DNA of 39,726 nucleotides, taken from a virus. The stretch covers positions 1 to 39,726 of IMG/VR virus record IMGVR_UViG_3300045947_000104; one strand, written 5' to 3'. The first letter of the stretch is position 1, and each line of letters opens with the position of its first letter. The notes beneath the pieces are model-generated. The model was given only the letters and a program-made list of their open reading frames with translations, was not told where the DNA came from and searched no databases. Below are positions 2,309 through 31,140 of this stretch, one piece after another. Both the position numbers and the translations under genes were made by a program.

Positions 2309-4522
2309 ATGGGCGCGTCGCTCACGCTCCGGAAACGCCTCGCCGTCACGGCCGCCGCCGTCCGCGCCATCTGGCGCGGCCCGTGGAGTTCCAGCGACTC
2401 CGAGCTCGCCCGGTATTTCGGCGGCGGGCCCGTGACGGCCGGCGTCTCGGTCTCTCAAGAGACCGCCCTCACGTATGCGGCCGTGTGGCAGGCCGTGACC
2501 CTCATCTCCGGCCAGGTCGCCTCGCTCCCGCTCATCCTCTATAAGCGATTGGACGGAGGCGGGAAGGAACGATTCACCGGTCATCCGCTGTACCGGCTGT
2601 TGCACGACGAGCCAAACCCGGAGATGAGCTCGTTCATCTTCCGGGAGACCTTGCAAGCGCACGTCCTGACCTGGGGGAACGCGTACGCGGAGATCCAGCG
2701 CAACGCCGGCAACGCGCCGGTCGCTCTGTGGCCGATCCCGCCCGACCGCGTCACGCCCGACCGGGACCCGCGGACGAACGCGCTCCTCTATCGCGTCTTC
2801 AATCCAAAGAGCGGCCGCGAGGTCACCATCCCGGCGGCCGACATGCTCCATATCCCGGGGCTCGGGTTCGACGGCGCGGTCGGGTACTCCGTGATTCAGA
2901 AGGCGCGCGAGTCGATCGGCCTCGGGATTGCGGCGGAGCGGTTCGGGGCGGCGTTCTTCGGGAACGGCTCGACCTTCGGCGGGATCCTCACGCATCCGAA
3001 GGCGCTGCAGCCGGACGCCCGCAAGCGTATCAGGGAGTCCGTCGAGCAGCAGCACGCGGGACCCGCGCGCGCGCATAAATTCATGCTCTTAGAAGAGGGC
3101 CTGAGTTATACGAAGATCGGGGTCCCGCCGCAGGACGCGCAATTTCTGCAGACGCGGCAGTTTCAAGTCGAAGAGATCGCCCGCTGGTTCAACCTGCCGC
3201 CGCACAAGTTGAAGCATCTCGAGCGGTCCACAAACAACAACATTGAGCATCAAAATTTGGAGTACTACATCGACTGTCTCCGGACGTGGCTCGTCCGATG
3301 GGAGCAGGAGATCCGGCGGAAGCTCATCGCGCCGGCCGAGCGGAAGATCCAATTCGCGGAGTTCCTCGTCGATGCGCTGCTGCGCGGCGACACGGCAAGC
3401 CGGTATGCGGCCTATGCGGTCGGGCGTCAATGGGGCTGGCTGTCGCCGGATGACGTGCGCGAGCGCGAGAACATGAACCCGCTCCCCGGCGGCGCCGGGG
3501 AGATCTATCTCGTGCCATCGAACATGATGGACGCCTCCCGCGTGAAGGATCTCCCCGTGCCAGGGACGGCGCCGGCTCCCGCGCCCGCGGCGGAGCCGGC
3601 GCCCGAGCCTGACGACCCGGCCGACGAGGACGAGCGCGCGCGGCTGCGCGCCGAACGGGACATGGCGGTCGAGACCGCCTTCGGGTTCCAGGCGCGCGTC
3701 GCCGAGCTCCACGAAGCGACGGAGGCCGCGACCGCGCAGGCGGCCGCGAGCGAGGTCCGCGCCGCCGAGGCGGAGGGCCGCGCGACCGCGGCGGGCGCCC
3801 GCGCCGAGGACGAGACGCGCCGATGGGCGGACGCCTCGAGCGAACGGGACGCGCTCCGCGCGACCCTCGAGCGGCTCGTCGCCGAGGCGGAGGCGAGCGG
3901 GGCCGCGCAGCGCGCCGAGCTCGCGCAGCAGCTCGCCGAGGCGGAGCGCCGCGCGACGACCCTTGAGGCCGACCACGCAGCCGCCCAGGAGGCCGCCGCG
4001 CAGGCGACCGCGCAGCGCGAGGCGCTCGCGCAGGCGGCCGACCAGGCGCGAACCCGCGCGCAGGAGCTCGAGCAGGCGCTCGCCGCGGCGCGCGGGGCGT
4101 TGCAGACGACCGCGGCGAGCCAAGTGCACGCCCGACACGCGCTGTATCTCGACGTCATGCGGCGCGCCATCGAGCGCGAGGCGGACCGGCTCACGTCCGC
4201 CCAGGCGAGCCGGGAGAAGGTCCGGGCCGCGGCGGAGTCGCTCTATGCCCGGCACGGCGCCTTGGTTCGGGATCATCTCCTGCCGGCCGTCCGGGTCCAT
4301 CTCGCGGCGATCCGGTCGGACGCTGACCCGCTCCGGCTCGCGGAAGAGGTCGCCGCGCAGCACGTCGAGGCGTCCCGTCAGGACGTGGCGACCGTCCTCG
4401 AGGAGGAAGACTTCCATCCGGAGCTCGCGCGCATGCTTCGACGCTGGCGCGAGGAGCGCGTCGCGGACGTGCCGAACCGGTTCACGCAAGCGGAGCTCGA
4501 CTATGCCACTCGCGCAGCCTGA
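2309..4522 (+). CDS. HK97-type portal protein with long coiled-coil C-terminal extension
   Basis: 737 aa. Residues about 30-400 show the phage portal family pattern, including VSVSQETALTYAAVWQAVTL, HPLYRLLHDEPN, LQAHVLTWGNAYAEI and ARWFNLPPHKL. Residues about 410-440 are a Pro/Ala/Asp linker. Residues about 440-620 are an Ala/Glu/Arg-rich heptad-like coiled coil, followed by a helical domain to the end. HK97-type portals usually stop near 400-450 residues, so about 300 residues are extra. The portal forms the dodecameric ring at the head vertex. The extension could act in scaffolding, internal core formation or ejection, which is inference. The gene overlaps the protease by 20 nt. Confidence 0.93.
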   Translation: MGASLTLRKRLAVTAAAVRAIWRGPWSSSDSELARYFGGGPVTAGVSVSQETALTYAAVWQAVTLISGQVASLPLILYKRLDGGGKERFTGHPLYRLLHDEPNPEMSSFIFRETLQAHVLTWGNAYAEIQRNAGNAPVALWPIPPDRVTPDRDPRTNALLYRVFNPKSGREVTIPAADMLHIPGLGFDGAVGYSVIQKARESIGLGIAAERFGAAFFGNGSTFGGILTHPKALQPDARKRIRESVEQQHAGPARAHKFMLLEEGLSYTKIGVPPQDAQFLQTRQFQVEEIARWFNLPPHKLKHLERSTNNNIEHQNLEYYIDCLRTWLVRWEQEIRRKLIAPAERKIQFAEFLVDALLRGDTASRYAAYAVGRQWGWLSPDDVRERENMNPLPGGAGEIYLVPSNMMDASRVKDLPVPGTAPAPAPAAEPAPEPDDPADEDERARLRAERDMAVETAFGFQARVAELHEATEAATAQAAASEVRAAEAEGRATAAGARAEDETRRWADASSERDALRATLERLVAEAEASGAAQRAELAQQLAEAERRATTLEADHAAAQEAAAQATAQREALAQAADQARTRAQELEQALAAARGALQTTAASQVHARHALYLDVMRRAIEREADRLTSAQASREKVRAAAESLYARHGALVRDHLLPAVRVHLAAIRSDADPLRLAEEVAAQHVEASRQDVATVLEEEDFHPELARMLRRWREERVADVPNRFTQAELDYATRAA

Positions 4523-5087
4523 CGCCTTCGAGCGTCGCATGTCCGGCGAGGTCCGGGTCGATCTCTCGGCCGACAGGAAGATCCGCGGGACGGCGATCGT
4601 CTTCAATCGCCTGTCCGCGGACCTCGGCGGGTTCCGTGAGATCATCAAACCGGCCGCGGTCGATCGGACGCTCGACGAGAACGGCGACGTCCGGGCGCTC
4701 TGGAACCACGACACCGGGATCGTCCTTGGACGCACGCGCGCGGGGACGCTGACGCTCCGGCGCCGGCGCGACGGGCTCGAGGCGACGATCGACCCGCCCT
4801 CGTGGGCCGCGGACAAGCTCGAAAGCATCCAGCGGGGCGACGTGAGCGGAATGTCGTTCCGGTTCCGGGTTCTGAAGGACGCCTGGGACTTCTCCGATGA
4901 GGAGAACATCATTCGGGAGGTTCACGACATGACCTTCGATGAGGTCTCGATCGTGACCTTCCCGGCGTATCCGCAGACGGACGTCACGGTCGCGCAGCGC
5001 GCGCTCGCCGCGCATCGCGAGGAGCGGCGCGCGTTGCGGGTCGCCTTCCTCGAGAAGCTGCACCGGACGCGGGTTGCCACGTTCTAA
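4503..5087 (+). CDS. HK97-family prohead protease
   Basis: 194 aa serine protease that matures the capsid. The fold signature runs from IRGTAIVFNRLS through LWNHD (His69), then GDVSGMSF (Ser118 likely catalytic, Ser115 the alternative), then EVSIVTFPAYPQTDV near the C-terminus. The start ATG 4503 lies inside the end of the portal gene, a common coupling. It is placed between portal and capsid as in HK97-like genomes. The capsid protein carries a coiled N-terminal delta-like domain that this enzyme should remove. Confidence 0.92.
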   Translation: MPLAQPDAFERRMSGEVRVDLSADRKIRGTAIVFNRLSADLGGFREIIKPAAVDRTLDENGDVRALWNHDTGIVLGRTRAGTLTLRRRRDGLEATIDPPSWAADKLESIQRGDVSGMSFRFRVLKDAWDFSDEENIIREVHDMTFDEVSIVTFPAYPQTDVTVAQRALAAHREERRALRVAFLEKLHRTRVATF

Positions 5088-5102
5088 AACACAAGAGGGA
5101 CC

Positions 5103-5276
5103 ATGACCCCCGAGGCACTGCAGACCATCGAAAATCGCCGGAACAAGTTCGACGTCCCGGAGCTCGTCGCCGAGATCCGCCGGCTCTGGGCCGAGCGCGA
5201 CGCGAAGGCGACGGCGGGGCCGAAACCGGCGAAGAAGGGCGCGGCGGCGCCGGCCGCTGGCGGCGACGCCGATTGA
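5103..5276 (+). CDS. small hypothetical head-region protein
   Basis: 57 aa with a clear ribosome binding site (AAGAGGG) before ATG 5103. The first about 33 residues are helical and acidic/basic. The C-terminus is Lys/Ala/Gly-rich and low in complexity (KPAKKGAAAPAAGG). No family is recognised. The stop codon overlaps the -35 element of the capsid promoter candidate. Codon choice is strongly GC-ended like its neighbours, which supports a real gene. Confidence 0.65.
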   Translation: MTPEALQTIENRRNKFDVPELVAEIRRLWAERDAKATAGPKPAKKGAAAPAAGGDAD

Positions 5277-5302
5277 CGGCGACTGGCGGACTCTGCTAGG
5301 GT
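5273..5302 (+). promoter_or_regulatory. sigma70-like promoter upstream of the capsid gene
   Basis: TTGACG (5273-5278), an 18-nt spacer and TAGGGT (5297-5302). The -35 matches 5 of 6 consensus bases, and the -10 keeps the key T, A and final T. Predicted transcription start is near 5309, giving a leader of about 178 nt before the capsid ATG. The same TTGACG -35 is used by the early promoter at 31097. Support is by consensus only. Confidence 0.5.
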
Positions 5303-5308
5303 CTGAAT

Positions 5309-5452
5309 CAACGACAGACGCCGGCGACGCGCGACGGGGGAGCCCGGGCGCCCGCGCGGCGACATCAAGCGAGCCAGCCTCAGAGGGGGCGAGGCCCGCT
5401 GGCGAAACAGGACATCTGATTTCGCCGGTGGACCTCGCCCCCGTTGTGTTTT
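5309..5452 (+). ncRNA. structured leader / small RNA before capsid gene
   Basis: The capsid leader holds a very long hairpin at 5385-5442. GGGGGCGAGG pairs with CCTCGCCCCC, then after one C-A mismatch CCGCTGGCGAAA pairs with TTTCGCCGGTGG. That is 22 pairs including two G-U, and CAG/CTG can pair at the tip. The stem is followed by a T-rich stretch GTTGTGTTTT (5443-5452), as in an intrinsic terminator. A GC-rich upstream part (5318-5362) can also fold. This could be a small RNA of about 140 nt, an attenuator, or a stabilising 5' leader for capsid mRNA. No known RNA family is recognised. Confidence 0.55.
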
Positions 5453-5486
5453 CGGCGCCATCCCCCGGCGAGCCGAGGACACACCC

Positions 5487-6872
5487 ATGACCCTCCAGGA
5501 ATTGCGCGACGAACGCCGGCGGCTCGCCGAGCAGGCAAACGAAGTGCTTCGGACGGCGCGCGCGGAAAACCGCGACGTCACGGCCGAGGAGGACGCCCGA
5601 TTCGAGGCGATCCACGCGGACATCGAGAAGTTGCGCAGGCGGATCGAGCGCGAGGAGCGTCAGGAAGCGGTCGATTCCAGCCTCGCCGAGACGACCCGCC
5701 GCACGGAGCCGAACCAGCCGGGCGAGACCCGCGCCGGCGGCGAGACGCGCGTCACGCGCCCGGACATCGACCCAAACCTCGACGGCCTGCGCTCGTGGCT
5801 CATGGCCGGGTGTGGGGGCAGCCAGGGCCCGTCGCCCGAGCTGCGGGGCAACGCCGAGCGGTCCGGGGTCAATCTCGACTCGAAGTACTTCACGCTGAGG
5901 CTCCCGCGGTCGCCCCTCCGCAAGCTGGGCGAAGAGGGGATCGCCGAGTGGCGCGCCGCGAACGGGATCGCGCCGCCGCAGACCCGCGCCGCGCTCGGCG
6001 TCGGCTCGGGCTCGATCGGCGGGTTCACCGTCAAGGACGAGATGATGCGCTCGCTCGAGGTCTCGCTCCTAGCCTTCGGCGGGATGCGCCAGGCCGCGAC
6101 CGTCATCCGGACGGAGAGCGGCGCCGACCTGCCCTGGCCGACCATGAACGACACCGGCAACAAGGGTCGGATCATCGGTGAGAATTCGGCGCACACGAAC
6201 ACGGACATCGCGTTCGGGCAGGTCGTCTATCAGGCCTTCAAGTACTCCAGCGACTACGTCCTCGTGTCGTGGGAGTTCCTGCAGGACTCGACGATTAACG
6301 CCGCCGAGACCATCGGGAAGGCGCTCGGCGAACGCATCGGCCGGATCACGAACGACCATTTTACGACGGGCGACGCCTCCTCGAAGCCGAACGGGATCGT
6401 CACCGCAGCCGGCGCCGGCGTGACGGCGACCTCGCTCACGACGACGACGACCTACTCGTTCCTGATGGACCTGGTTCACTCCGTGGACCCGAGGTATCGG
6501 GTGAGCGGGCGGTTCATGCTGTCGGATGCCGCGCTCAAGATGGTCCGGAAGATCCTCATCCCGCAGTACTCCGGCGACACGGCCGGCGCGCCGCTCTGGC
6601 AGCCGTCGCTCGTGGCCGGCGTGCCGGACCAGCTCCTCGGCTACGGGTACGTCGTGAATCAGTCGATGACGGCGCCGGCGACGGCGGTCCGCTCGATCAT
6701 CTTCGGCGACCTGTCGAAGTACATGATCCGCGACGTCCGCGACGTGACGCTCGTCCGCGCCGAGGAGCGGTTCGTCGAGCTCGGACAGGTCGCGTTTCTC
6801 GCGTGGAGCCGCCACGACGGCGACCTCCTCGACGCGGGGACGGACCCGGTCAAGGCGCACATCCAGGGCTAA
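5487..6872 (+). CDS. HK97-fold major capsid protein
   Basis: 461 aa. Residues 1-70 form a charged coiled coil (MTLQELRDERRRLAEQANEV...) like the HK97 delta domain, which acts as internal scaffold and is removed by the protease. From about residue 165 the shell domain begins: GSIGGFTVKDEMMRSLEV, ADLPWPTMNDTGNKGRIIGE, VSWEFLQDS, NDHFTTGDASSKPNGI and FMLSDAALKMVRKI. These are phage_capsid family motifs in the right order. The start follows GAGCCGAGGACACACCC. Its own promoter candidate and leader RNA fit a protein needed in hundreds of copies. Confidence 0.95.
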   Translation: MTLQELRDERRRLAEQANEVLRTARAENRDVTAEEDARFEAIHADIEKLRRRIEREERQEAVDSSLAETTRRTEPNQPGETRAGGETRVTRPDIDPNLDGLRSWLMAGCGGSQGPSPELRGNAERSGVNLDSKYFTLRLPRSPLRKLGEEGIAEWRAANGIAPPQTRAALGVGSGSIGGFTVKDEMMRSLEVSLLAFGGMRQAATVIRTESGADLPWPTMNDTGNKGRIIGENSAHTNTDIAFGQVVYQAFKYSSDYVLVSWEFLQDSTINAAETIGKALGERIGRITNDHFTTGDASSKPNGIVTAAGAGVTATSLTTTTTYSFLMDLVHSVDPRYRVSGRFMLSDAALKMVRKILIPQYSGDTAGAPLWQPSLVAGVPDQLLGYGYVVNQSMTAPATAVRSIIFGDLSKYMIRDVRDVTLVRAEERFVELGQVAFLAWSRHDGDLLDAGTDPVKAHIQG

Positions 6873-16156: not shown

Positions 16157-17065
16157 ATGGCCGCCTCGACGATTACCCGAACGACCTGGACGAACGACAC
16201 GGGGACCGTGTCGTCGCCGAACAACGACGGGACCATCATCAACAACGCGCGCCTGCAGGACATCTATGCAGCGATCGACCAGCTCTTCTCGGGCGCCGGG
16301 TCGTATACGACGCTGACGTTCGGCGGGCTGGTCGCGGCCGAGGGGTTCGGGACGCATAACTTCTCCGGCGGCGGGACGGGCGCCCACACCCTGAAGATCC
16401 GCAACACGACGGCGGGCACGGGGAATTACGGCAAATTGTCCGTCGGATCGAACACGGACGATCTCGCGCAAGTCCTCGCGCTGTCCTCGAGTTTCACGAG
16501 CGCCGGGATGGATTTCCAGTCGGGCGTCTCGTTCAAGAGCATTGGTTCCGGCGGGCTGCACATCGGCGCGACGCATGCCTCGGGCGCGATCTCGTTCTAT
16601 ACCGGCGGGACGACGTCGCGGGGGTTTTTTACCGCGGCCGGCACGCTGATCCTCAACCATCAATTGCAAGTCGCCGACGGGGGCACGCCGGGCGCGCCGG
16701 GGATCTGCTTTCAGAGCGACCCCGACACGGGACTCTTTCGCGCGACGACGGACCAGATCAACATCGCGCTCGGCGGGAATACCGAGATCGTCCTCCAGCC
16801 CCGCAGCGCGTCGGCTGGACCGAATGTCTCTGTGATGGGTGCGGCCTTCGGGACGGGCAGCGTCGCCGGGGCGGGTCTCATCATCGGGAAGAACACGTCA
16901 GGAGGCGGGGCCGCCTCGTGGATTCGTCTATCGATGCGCTCCAGCGGCGACCGCTATCTGTGGGTCGATGACACGGGCGACCTGCGCATCGGCACGGCGC
17001 CGCCCACCGAGAACAACTCGACCGTCAGCGATACGTCTGGGACGGTCATCGGCACGCAGACGTAA
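16157..17065 (+). CDS. tail fibre-like protein
   Basis: 302 aa. The N-terminus TRTTWTNDTGTVSSPNNDGTIINNARLQDIYAAIDQLF is a pattern seen at the start of many phage fibre genes. The rest is Gly/Ser/Thr-rich beta structure with short repeats (GGLHIGATHASGAISFYTGGTTSRGFFTAAGTLIL, FQSDPDTGLFRATTDQINIALGG). The 'DTGLFR' element is common in phage tail fibres and phage-like particles. It probably forms a trimeric fibre or attachment tip. Confidence 0.75.
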   Translation: MAASTITRTTWTNDTGTVSSPNNDGTIINNARLQDIYAAIDQLFSGAGSYTTLTFGGLVAAEGFGTHNFSGGGTGAHTLKIRNTTAGTGNYGKLSVGSNTDDLAQVLALSSSFTSAGMDFQSGVSFKSIGSGGLHIGATHASGAISFYTGGTTSRGFFTAAGTLILNHQLQVADGGTPGAPGICFQSDPDTGLFRATTDQINIALGGNTEIVLQPRSASAGPNVSVMGAAFGTGSVAGAGLIIGKNTSGGGAASWIRLSMRSSGDRYLWVDDTGDLRIGTAPPTENNSTVSDTSGTVIGTQT

Positions 17066-24844: not shown

Positions 24845-26239
24845 ATGTCCTACAAACCTGGGAGCGGCTCCGGCGCCGGCGGCGACAGTACGGACTATTT
24901 CAAGCGGGATACAGACGTCGTCGGCCGCGAGGGCAGCGTCGCCTTTTGGTTCCGGAAGGACGGCAACGCGGGCGCGAGTGCCTTCCCTGGGATCTATACG
25001 TGCGGCGAGGCGGACTTCTCGCCGCACTTTTCGATTCAGCTCACGGACACGGGCCGGATCCGGCTGACGCAATTCAATTCGAACATCATCTCGACCCTCG
25101 GCGTCGGCACGGCGGCGAGCTGGCATCGGATCCTGTACGTCTGCGACACGGGCGTCGGCACGCAAACGCAGTGGGTGTACTGCGACGGGGTCCAATTCGC
25201 GACGCTGACCGGGAATACGGAGTTTACGAGCGCGTTCGACTATTGGGGGATCGGCACGCCGAACACGGTCAACGGGGCCTATCGGATGCTCATCGGCGAT
25301 ACCGACGTCCAGGCGCTCGTCGATTACGACGACCAATGGTCGAGCCTCGACGAGGCGATTTCCGGACTCGGTAATTTCTACGAATGCCCGCTCGACGCCG
25401 ACCTGAACGACGACAGCGGCGGGAGTAATGACCTCTCGGCGGTCGGGACGGTGACCCAGATCGCAGATCTCCCGGATCTCACCTTCCCGCGCGTCATGGC
25501 GTCCGCGAACACGAACGGGACGACGCTCTCGAGCTCGCTCAACATGCCTGCCGGGATCGTCGCCGGCGAGCTCCTCATCGCGATCGCCGTCAACGATGGG
25601 ACCGGCGGGACGAATATGGCGATCTCGGGCTGGACGCAGCTCTTTCATACCCAGTTCACGTCGAATGTGATCTCGCACGGCGCGTGGGCGAAGATCGCGG
25701 CGGGCAGCGACACGGCGACGCTCACGGGGGCCGCCCAGGACTTCGCGGCCGTCGTCCTCCGGATCGAGAATCACGGCGTCTCGAACATCGCGAGCGATGT
25801 CAAGGTCGGGACCGCGGCGACCGGGACGAGCGCGACGCCGAACCCGCCGAGCCTCGACGCCGGCGCCTCGCGCAAGCATCTCTGGATCGCGAGCAACGGC
25901 TCCGACGACGACGACGAGGCGGTCTCGTTCCCGCTCGAGCCGTCCGGATTTACCGGCGTCTGTCAGATCGAATCCGCGCAATCAACCTCGTCGTGCATGC
26001 TGCAAGTCGCGCAGCTCGCCGAGGAGACCCAGACGAAGGACCCGGGGACGTTCAACCTCGGCGCGAGCGAAGAATGGATCGCGCAGACGATCGCGGTCCC
26101 GCCCGCGGTCTCCGCCGCCATCCCCCCGTTTCGATCGCGCATGCATAGTGCTCTCCTCGCCCGCCGGCAGCGGTTCGGCCGCGACCGTGAGACCGGGCTC
26201 TTTCTCCCGACCGGCCTGCTCGGCCGGCGGGCCGCCTGA
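24845..26239 (+). CDS. LamG/concanavalin-like tail appendage protein
   Basis: 464 aa. The N-terminal half (about residues 15-200) shows the LamG-like jelly-roll pattern: GSVAFWFRKDGNAG, FSIQLTDTGRIRLTQF, SWHRILYVCD, VYCDGVQFATLTG and WGIGTPNTVNGAYRMLIGD. A second domain (about 205-440) has PRVMASANTNGTTLSSSLNMPAGIVAGELLIAIAVNDG and ISGWTQLF, a block frequent in phage structural proteins. The C-terminus is Arg-rich. Such carbohydrate-binding folds suit receptor recognition. Confidence 0.7.
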   Translation: MSYKPGSGSGAGGDSTDYFKRDTDVVGREGSVAFWFRKDGNAGASAFPGIYTCGEADFSPHFSIQLTDTGRIRLTQFNSNIISTLGVGTAASWHRILYVCDTGVGTQTQWVYCDGVQFATLTGNTEFTSAFDYWGIGTPNTVNGAYRMLIGDTDVQALVDYDDQWSSLDEAISGLGNFYECPLDADLNDDSGGSNDLSAVGTVTQIADLPDLTFPRVMASANTNGTTLSSSLNMPAGIVAGELLIAIAVNDGTGGTNMAISGWTQLFHTQFTSNVISHGAWAKIAAGSDTATLTGAAQDFAAVVLRIENHGVSNIASDVKVGTAATGTSATPNPPSLDAGASRKHLWIASNGSDDDDEAVSFPLEPSGFTGVCQIESAQSTSSCMLQVAQLAEETQTKDPGTFNLGASEEWIAQTIAVPPAVSAAIPPFRSRMHSALLARRQRFGRDRETGLFLPTGLLGRRAA

Positions 26240-31071: not shown

Positions 31072-31140
31072 TTTTCCATAGGGCGCGGATTTCAGGTTGA
31101 CGACCGCGCCTTAGGGGCGTAGTATGCGCCTTATGGAAAT
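31072..31140 (+). promoter_or_regulatory. operator region with three related half-sites
   Basis: TTTCCATAGGGCGC (about 31073-31086) and GCGCCTTATGGAAA (31126-31139) are inverted copies with one mismatch. Between them GCGCCTTAGGGGCG (31106-31119) shares GCGCCTTA with the second site and is itself partly palindromic. The central copy lies in the spacer of the rightward promoter and the right copy covers its transcription start. Repressor and Cro binding would switch both directions. Confidence 0.65.
31097..31125 (+). promoter_or_regulatory. PR: rightward early promoter
   Basis: TTGACG (31097-31102), 17-nt spacer and TAGTAT (31120-31125), a near-consensus sigma70 promoter. Predicted transcription start is at 31132-31133. 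The ATG at 31133 would therefore be at or next to the 5' end of the mRNA, so the Cro-like gene is probably leaderless. A central operator copy sits in the spacer. Confidence 0.65.

Follow-up and report, generated by a model that had tools for sequence, protein, structure and literature searches.

A gap of 210 nt, holding promoter-like boxes and a long inverted repeat, stands directly before the major capsid gene of an uncultivated phage, and raises the question of what such an element does there. We addressed this in a window of 39,726 nt (39.7 kb), meaning the whole stretch of DNA analysed, which comprises positions 1–39,726 of IMG/VR virus record IMGVR_UViG_3300045947_000104. On the + strand, the genes for the terminase large subunit, portal, prohead protease and HK97-fold major capsid protein occur in that order, and the gap, whose length agrees with that given in an earlier note on this DNA, extends from the stop codon of a 57-aa ORF (5276) to the capsid ATG (5487). 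The ORF matched no family; some relatives (L039, L046, L069, L005, L102) encode a different product at the same place between protease and leader, a small ribbon-helix-helix protein that often begins with a GRPR/AT-hook-like stretch and scored above the Pfam RHH_1 cut-off in L005 only. Further upstream in the window, the portal protein (PF04860; 2309–4522, 737 aa) carries a long Ala/Glu-rich C-terminal extension, probably a coiled coil, and a small helix-turn-helix ORF, excisionase-like by eye, lies between terminase and portal (1976–2245). To our knowledge, few structured leaders have been catalogued for the structural genes of phages, and head operons are mostly presented as plain polycistronic units. 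The features of the locus are collected in Table 1.

Table 1. Features in and around the leader of the major capsid gene (window coordinates).
Feature	Position	Strand	Remarks
Prohead serine protease gene (PF04586)	4503–5087	+	Upstream of leader; start codon approximate
57-aa ORF	5103–5276	+	Between protease and leader; stop codon 5274–5276
–35-like box, TTGACG	5273–5278	+	From sequence; overlaps stop codon of 57-aa ORF
–10-like box, TAGGGT	5297–5302	+	18-nt spacer after TTGACG; TGC precedes box
Hairpin 0 (upstream stem)	5320–5361	+	Ends in GGCGACA; weak; from fold, with motif in alignment
Hairpin I (segments 1:2)	5385–5442	+	22 pairs, 12-nt loop
Segment 2 core, TTCGCCGG	5421–5428	+	Complementary to 5465–5472
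U-rich tract after hairpin I, GTTGTGTTTTC	5443–5453	+	Resembles a terminator in many relatives; missing from others
Hairpin II (segments 3:4)	5445–5483	+	Minimum-energy fold; 3′ arm holds Shine–Dalgarno sequence
Segment 3 core, CCGGCGAG	5465–5472	+	Mainly hairpin II loop; covarying partner of segment 2
Shine–Dalgarno sequence, GAGGA	5475–5479	+	Paired in hairpin II
Major capsid protein gene (HK97 fold, PF05065)	5487–6872	+	461 aa

The capsid protein and an alignment of it, used as queries, yielded ~80 viral loci with capsids 41–65% identical, plus identical copies. From these loci we drew 55 non-redundant leaders, 54 of which place two hairpins before the capsid ATG (the exception is L067). 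Linkage was evaluated in the opposite direction by scanning 2.9 million viral contigs with three DNA patterns of the RNA that were blind to the capsid. This gave 41 matches, and a capsid gene of this family followed in all 40 that had enough downstream sequence, within about 75 nt in 38 of them; among the scanned viral contigs, the leader RNA was seen only before the gene of this capsid lineage. The earlier note had held that few head operons show such an element, which is not borne out as stated: within this lineage the leader is the rule. Because distant capsid relatives have neither the leader (Nitrospira, L104, and Rhizobium phage 16-3, both with short gaps before the capsid gene) nor, for other relatives on genome contigs, a convincing covariance model match before the capsid gene, we regard the leader as lineage-specific. 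In some relatives (L166 and L169, also L054 and L085), a small extra ORF separates leader and capsid gene and owns the leader's start codon.

The two boxes at the upstream end of the gap are of the sigma-70 type, one TTGACA-like and one TANNNT-like, spaced within 16–19 nt and kept in position in relatives. Specifically, TTGACG-18-TAGGGT was found as the earlier note had read it, at 5273–5278 and 5297–5302, and TTGACN-16/19-YANNNT begins 100–128 nt before hairpin I in 14 of 54 relatives, where the rate of the same pattern in the same loci predicts 0.14 (~100-fold enrichment); a clear TTGAC box is missing in most other relatives. This comparison supports the proposal that the capsid gene has a promoter of its own, from which RNA would start near 5309 to give a leader of ~180 nt. 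A consensus scan of the window returned a single sigma-70-like promoter match, TTGACG-17-TAGTAT at 31097–31125, with a –35 box identical to that of the capsid leader.

Hairpin I itself was recovered exactly as first described (22 pairs, two of them G–U, and a single mismatch). Its arms, 5385–5407 and 5420–5442, pair at 22 of 23 positions, the remaining one being a C–A mismatch, and form the longest well-paired hairpin in an inverted-repeat scan (23-nt arms, 87% complementary, 12-nt loop). The fold of 5273–5486 has an energy of –119 kcal/mol, compared to –92.9 ± 5.0 kcal/mol for dinucleotide shuffles (z = –5.2), none of 200 being as stable. Across 54 leaders, the fold z of hairpin I averages –6.3 and is below –2 in every one; capsid-coding control segments give 0.1. 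A terminator-like hairpin at 25000–25037 of the window (GTGCGGCGAG...CTCGCCGCAC, then TTTTCGATTC) has 11 pairs. Upstream of hairpin I, a further stem, hairpin 0, is weak (mean fold z = –0.97 in 54 leaders); relatives carry GAGCC...GGCGAYAA at its site, and a GGCGAYAA/GACATAG motif follows this weak stem in many leaders (5350–5365 in the window).

Covariation was assessed on trimmed alignments and with a covariance model, and hairpin I arms were curated for the comparison of segments; a global MAFFT alignment of the 55 leaders showed conserved columns, but was unsuited to RNAalifold because stem lengths vary. In an alignment of 12 leaders from which the window was left out, eight pairs of hairpin I are changed on both sides, a count reached by none of 500 shuffles, and the pairing is destroyed when one partner is slid by one to three columns. 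Among 50 rows aligned with the covariance model, 92.6% of hairpin I cells are standard pairs, a figure that leans towards the structure because this alignment was fitted to it, and several positions use CG, AT, GC and TA. Compensatory changes are therefore present in relatives within 5385–5442, where the earlier note had proposed looking for them. The covariance model (R1), trained without the window, matches it at 5386–5489 (E = 4e-14) and finds dozens of loci immediately before a capsid ATG. It also matches L106, a contig assigned by binning to a Hydrogenedentota genome (MAG; E = 7e-7), which shows promoter, hairpin I, U-tract, hairpin II and cross-pairing. A second match to the hairpin I model in the window (16902–16970, E = 0.004) was dismissed as chance, as it falls inside a gene and leaves the loop section of the model unmatched.

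The T-rich stretch reported after hairpin I is indeed present and may form a U-tract; what had been missed is that it is also the 5′ arm of hairpin II. In the minimum-energy fold, 5445–5456 pairs with the Shine–Dalgarno region (5472–5483), and the resulting 3′ arm, GCCGAGGACACA, includes GAGGA seven bases before the ATG. Hairpin II is weaker than hairpin I by fold (mean z = –2.1 in 54 leaders); for its 3:4 pairing, a test of matched against mismatched partners gave z = 11.5 in 54 leaders and 4.7 in 14 divergent leaders. Mean pairing of the Shine–Dalgarno sequence is 0.73, whereas 177 control ORFs from these loci average 0.54 (p = 2.5e-6); the distance of the sequence from hairpin I ranges over 21–62 nt among relatives. 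One subgroup (L005, L043, L059, L065 and others) has a conserved CCATGTGTC between the two hairpins, an extended hairpin I base that replaces the U-tract, and a conserved ACACAG upstream.

A third pairing joins the two hairpins. In the window, the hairpin II loop can base-pair with the 3′ arm of hairpin I (TTCGCCGG/CCGGCGAG), and relatives have other versions of the same 2:3 complementarity, namely TCGCCTG/CAGGCGA, TCGTGCG/CGCACGA, TCGCCAG/CTGGCGA, TCGCCGATG/CATCGGCGA and GCTTGGGG/CCCCAAGC. Segments taken from the same leader were compared with segments shuffled between leaders over 3000 permutations, none of which reached the observed complementarity, either in 54 leaders (z = 8.2) or in the 14 leaders with capsids <55% identical (z = 5.0); among only five leaders at <50% identity, the signal is z = 2.9. 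Control combinations 1:3 and 1:4, with the same relatedness, gave z values from –0.2 to –1.5 in the 54- and 14-leader sets. The 2:4 combination gave about 2.5; a clade whose segment 2 is similar to segment 4 may account for this value. Among members of the L064/L099 clade, segment 2 copies the start-codon region, and segments 2 and 4 therefore compete for segment 3. New loci fetched by DNA pattern carry the same 2:3 pairing. Against this stands a five-pair 2:3 helix on a small alignment (A4), in which only two pairs are doubly changed and 47 of 500 shuffles were as good. With these results, the window has, immediately ahead of a capsid gene of this family, the combination by which we define a new leader family: hairpin I, hairpin II with its Shine–Dalgarno sequence, and complementarity of segments 2 and 3. 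That this leader RNA is real, is conserved within its lineage and not beyond it, and has a promoter of its own seems to us very nearly certain.

The same motif is repeated within the segments, inviting a reading at the level of DNA, in which inverted copies of GGCGA/TCGCC would bind a DNA-binding protein and the RNA folds would be by-products. Segments 1, 2 and 3 do hold inverted and direct copies of this one motif, and small ribbon-helix-helix proteins are encoded just upstream in some relatives. However, on the + strand G–U combinations exceed A–C by 100:21 in hairpin I and 28:9 in segments 2:3 (25:17 in hairpin II, not significant), counts whose p-values serve as a guide only, related sequences not being independent. 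Neither DNA palindromes nor a – strand RNA would give such an excess, which therefore indicates a + strand RNA and, together with the compensatory changes, strongly supports the long structured leader RNA that had been claimed from the window. The variable spacing between hairpin I and the Shine–Dalgarno sequence (21–62 nt), and the way in which hairpin II tracks that sequence, also run against a DNA operator, which we regard as highly improbable.

As an RNA, hairpin I might act mainly as an intrinsic terminator or attenuator, at which transcripts from the leader promoter and read-through transcripts from the protease gene would stop after the U-tract unless something let the polymerase pass, with hairpin II being secondary. 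The strong GC hairpin is followed by U-rich tracts in many relatives, such as CCCTTTTTCTTTGG (L042) and CCCTTTTTCTTTTGC (L106), and by GTTGTGTTTTC in the window, where the first 12 nt after hairpin I contain seven T (the first base being G), compared to one to eight in relatives. However, the subgroup with L005, L043, L059 and others keeps hairpin I, hairpin II and 2:3 pairing although a U-tract is absent after hairpin I, so that attenuation would be an added rather than a shared function, and termination leaves the strict linkage to Shine–Dalgarno masking unexplained. Furthermore, because the promoter lies upstream of hairpin I, the hairpin cannot be stopping all capsid transcripts constitutively, and termination there must be partial or regulated; nor can 2:3 be an antiterminator, since the polymerase reaches segment 3 only beyond the termination point. 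We thus consider termination unlikely as the main role; as an addition to the translational control proposed below, some of the transcripts could end at hairpin I and its U-tract in many relatives. Promoter and terminator-like end together would yield an RNA of about 140 nt, and a separate small RNA that starts at the leader promoter, stops where hairpin I ends and acts in trans was accordingly weighed. Its U-tract is not conserved, and a capsid start with hairpin II is strictly linked in 40 of 40 testable pattern matches; conserved pairing with the Shine–Dalgarno region, and a capsid gene that strictly accompanies the element, favour a leader acting in cis, and make a trans-acting RNA very unlikely. 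A leader with its own promoter, strong 5′ hairpins and an abundant product would also suit stabilisation or insulation of the kind provided by the T7 gene 10 leader, whereby the hairpins shield the capsid mRNA from decay and make its translation independent of upstream RNA. We find this distinctly unlikely as the whole account, given that it explains neither the buried Shine–Dalgarno sequence nor the covarying 2:3 pairing.

A buried ribosome-binding site on a highly needed gene, together with a covarying alternative contact, reads as a translational control element, and we hold with roughly even confidence that 5273–5486 is a promoter plus a conserved structured 5′ leader that controls translation of the capsid mRNA. 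Transcription would start near 5309, hairpin I would fold first and hairpin II after it, and the latter, which by calculation and comparison buries the Shine–Dalgarno sequence, would be expected to keep capsid translation low. Alternatively, segment 2 may pair with segment 3 in the hairpin II loop, a contact for which complementarity and covariation speak, and which would exclude the upper half of hairpin I; where 2:3 pairing extends into the hairpin II 5′ arm or the start codon, of which the L064/L099 clade is an example, it would also exclude the hairpin that masks the Shine–Dalgarno sequence and AUG. The leader might then shift between masked and open or pseudoknotted states when a trigger acts on hairpin I; the capsid protein, to which a scaffold domain is fused, is one possible trigger, and some other late factor is another. 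With segment 1 blocked in a nested folding model, the probability of 2:3 pairing exceeds 0.5 in only 15 of 52 leaders and mean Shine–Dalgarno pairing is barely lowered (from 0.73 to 0.70), and in the window alone the 2:3 probability climbs only to 0.19 with segment 1 hidden. Simple refolding of the ermC kind gains little from these values, because 2:3 is probable in just those 15 leaders and the Shine–Dalgarno sequence is hardly freed; a kissing or pseudoknotted form, which nested-folding tools do not score, or a protein that opens hairpin I would be needed for a switch. It is possible, if doubtful, that the leader is an RNA switch in which kissing or alternative pairing between the two hairpins times capsid synthesis, with the capsid protein or its fused scaffold domain as the sensor, and free capsid subunits shut off their own mRNA.

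Several known systems resemble parts of this arrangement. In Escherichia coli, rpsO mRNA carries an autogenous translational operator for S15, in which a two-hairpin form and a pseudoknot are in equilibrium. The capsid leader is likewise short, with two hairpins and alternative or pseudoknot pairing, possibly of one hairpin with the loop of the other, beside a masked or trapped ribosome-binding site; this is a likeness of form and not of homology. The gene here is a phage capsid gene, hairpin I is longer, and neither sequence comparison nor Rfam gave a match. Translational attenuators such as that of ermC are organised alike, in segments that pair as 1:2, 2:3 and 3:4, segment 4 being the one that hides the Shine–Dalgarno sequence, but here nested refolding is weak and no leader peptide is conserved, which makes ribosome stalling of that kind unlikely. 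A leader-peptide reading was rejected, as no Shine–Dalgarno sequence with a start codon was found upstream of hairpin I in the window, and only sporadic ones in relatives. T7 gene 10 is expressed from a promoter for the phage RNA polymerase, and its short leader hairpin leaves the Shine–Dalgarno sequence open. Like the present locus, it encodes the major capsid protein and has a promoter and a leader hairpin of its own; it differs in its polymerase, in the length of its hairpin and in the Shine–Dalgarno sequence, which is masked here. The GC-rich hairpin and U-tract of many members are those of intrinsic terminators and attenuators, from which the leader departs in the subgroup lacking a U-tract and in its second, Shine–Dalgarno-masking hairpin. 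The P22 scaffolding protein is autoregulated post-transcriptionally; the likeness, an assembly protein gene controlled at the mRNA level, is an analogy only. The nearest systems overall are the two-hairpin/pseudoknot operators of ribosomal protein mRNAs in form, and the T7 gene 10 leader in position.

Searches of Rfam 15 gave no family at the gathering cut-off for window positions 4700–5700, where only miRNA models appeared, far below it, and no match in 20 relatives (148 kb). The phage riboregulator literature that we examined makes no mention of capsid leaders, and a literature search of limited coverage returned no description of this one. The leader thus adds an RNA family missing from Rfam: within one capsid lineage, dozens of uncultivated phages share a promoter and a ~180-nt leader with three covarying pairings. 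If the proposed control is true, these phages would tune the supply of capsid subunits independently of portal and protease, and the leader would offer a direct genetic handle on the capsid supply of a tailed phage.
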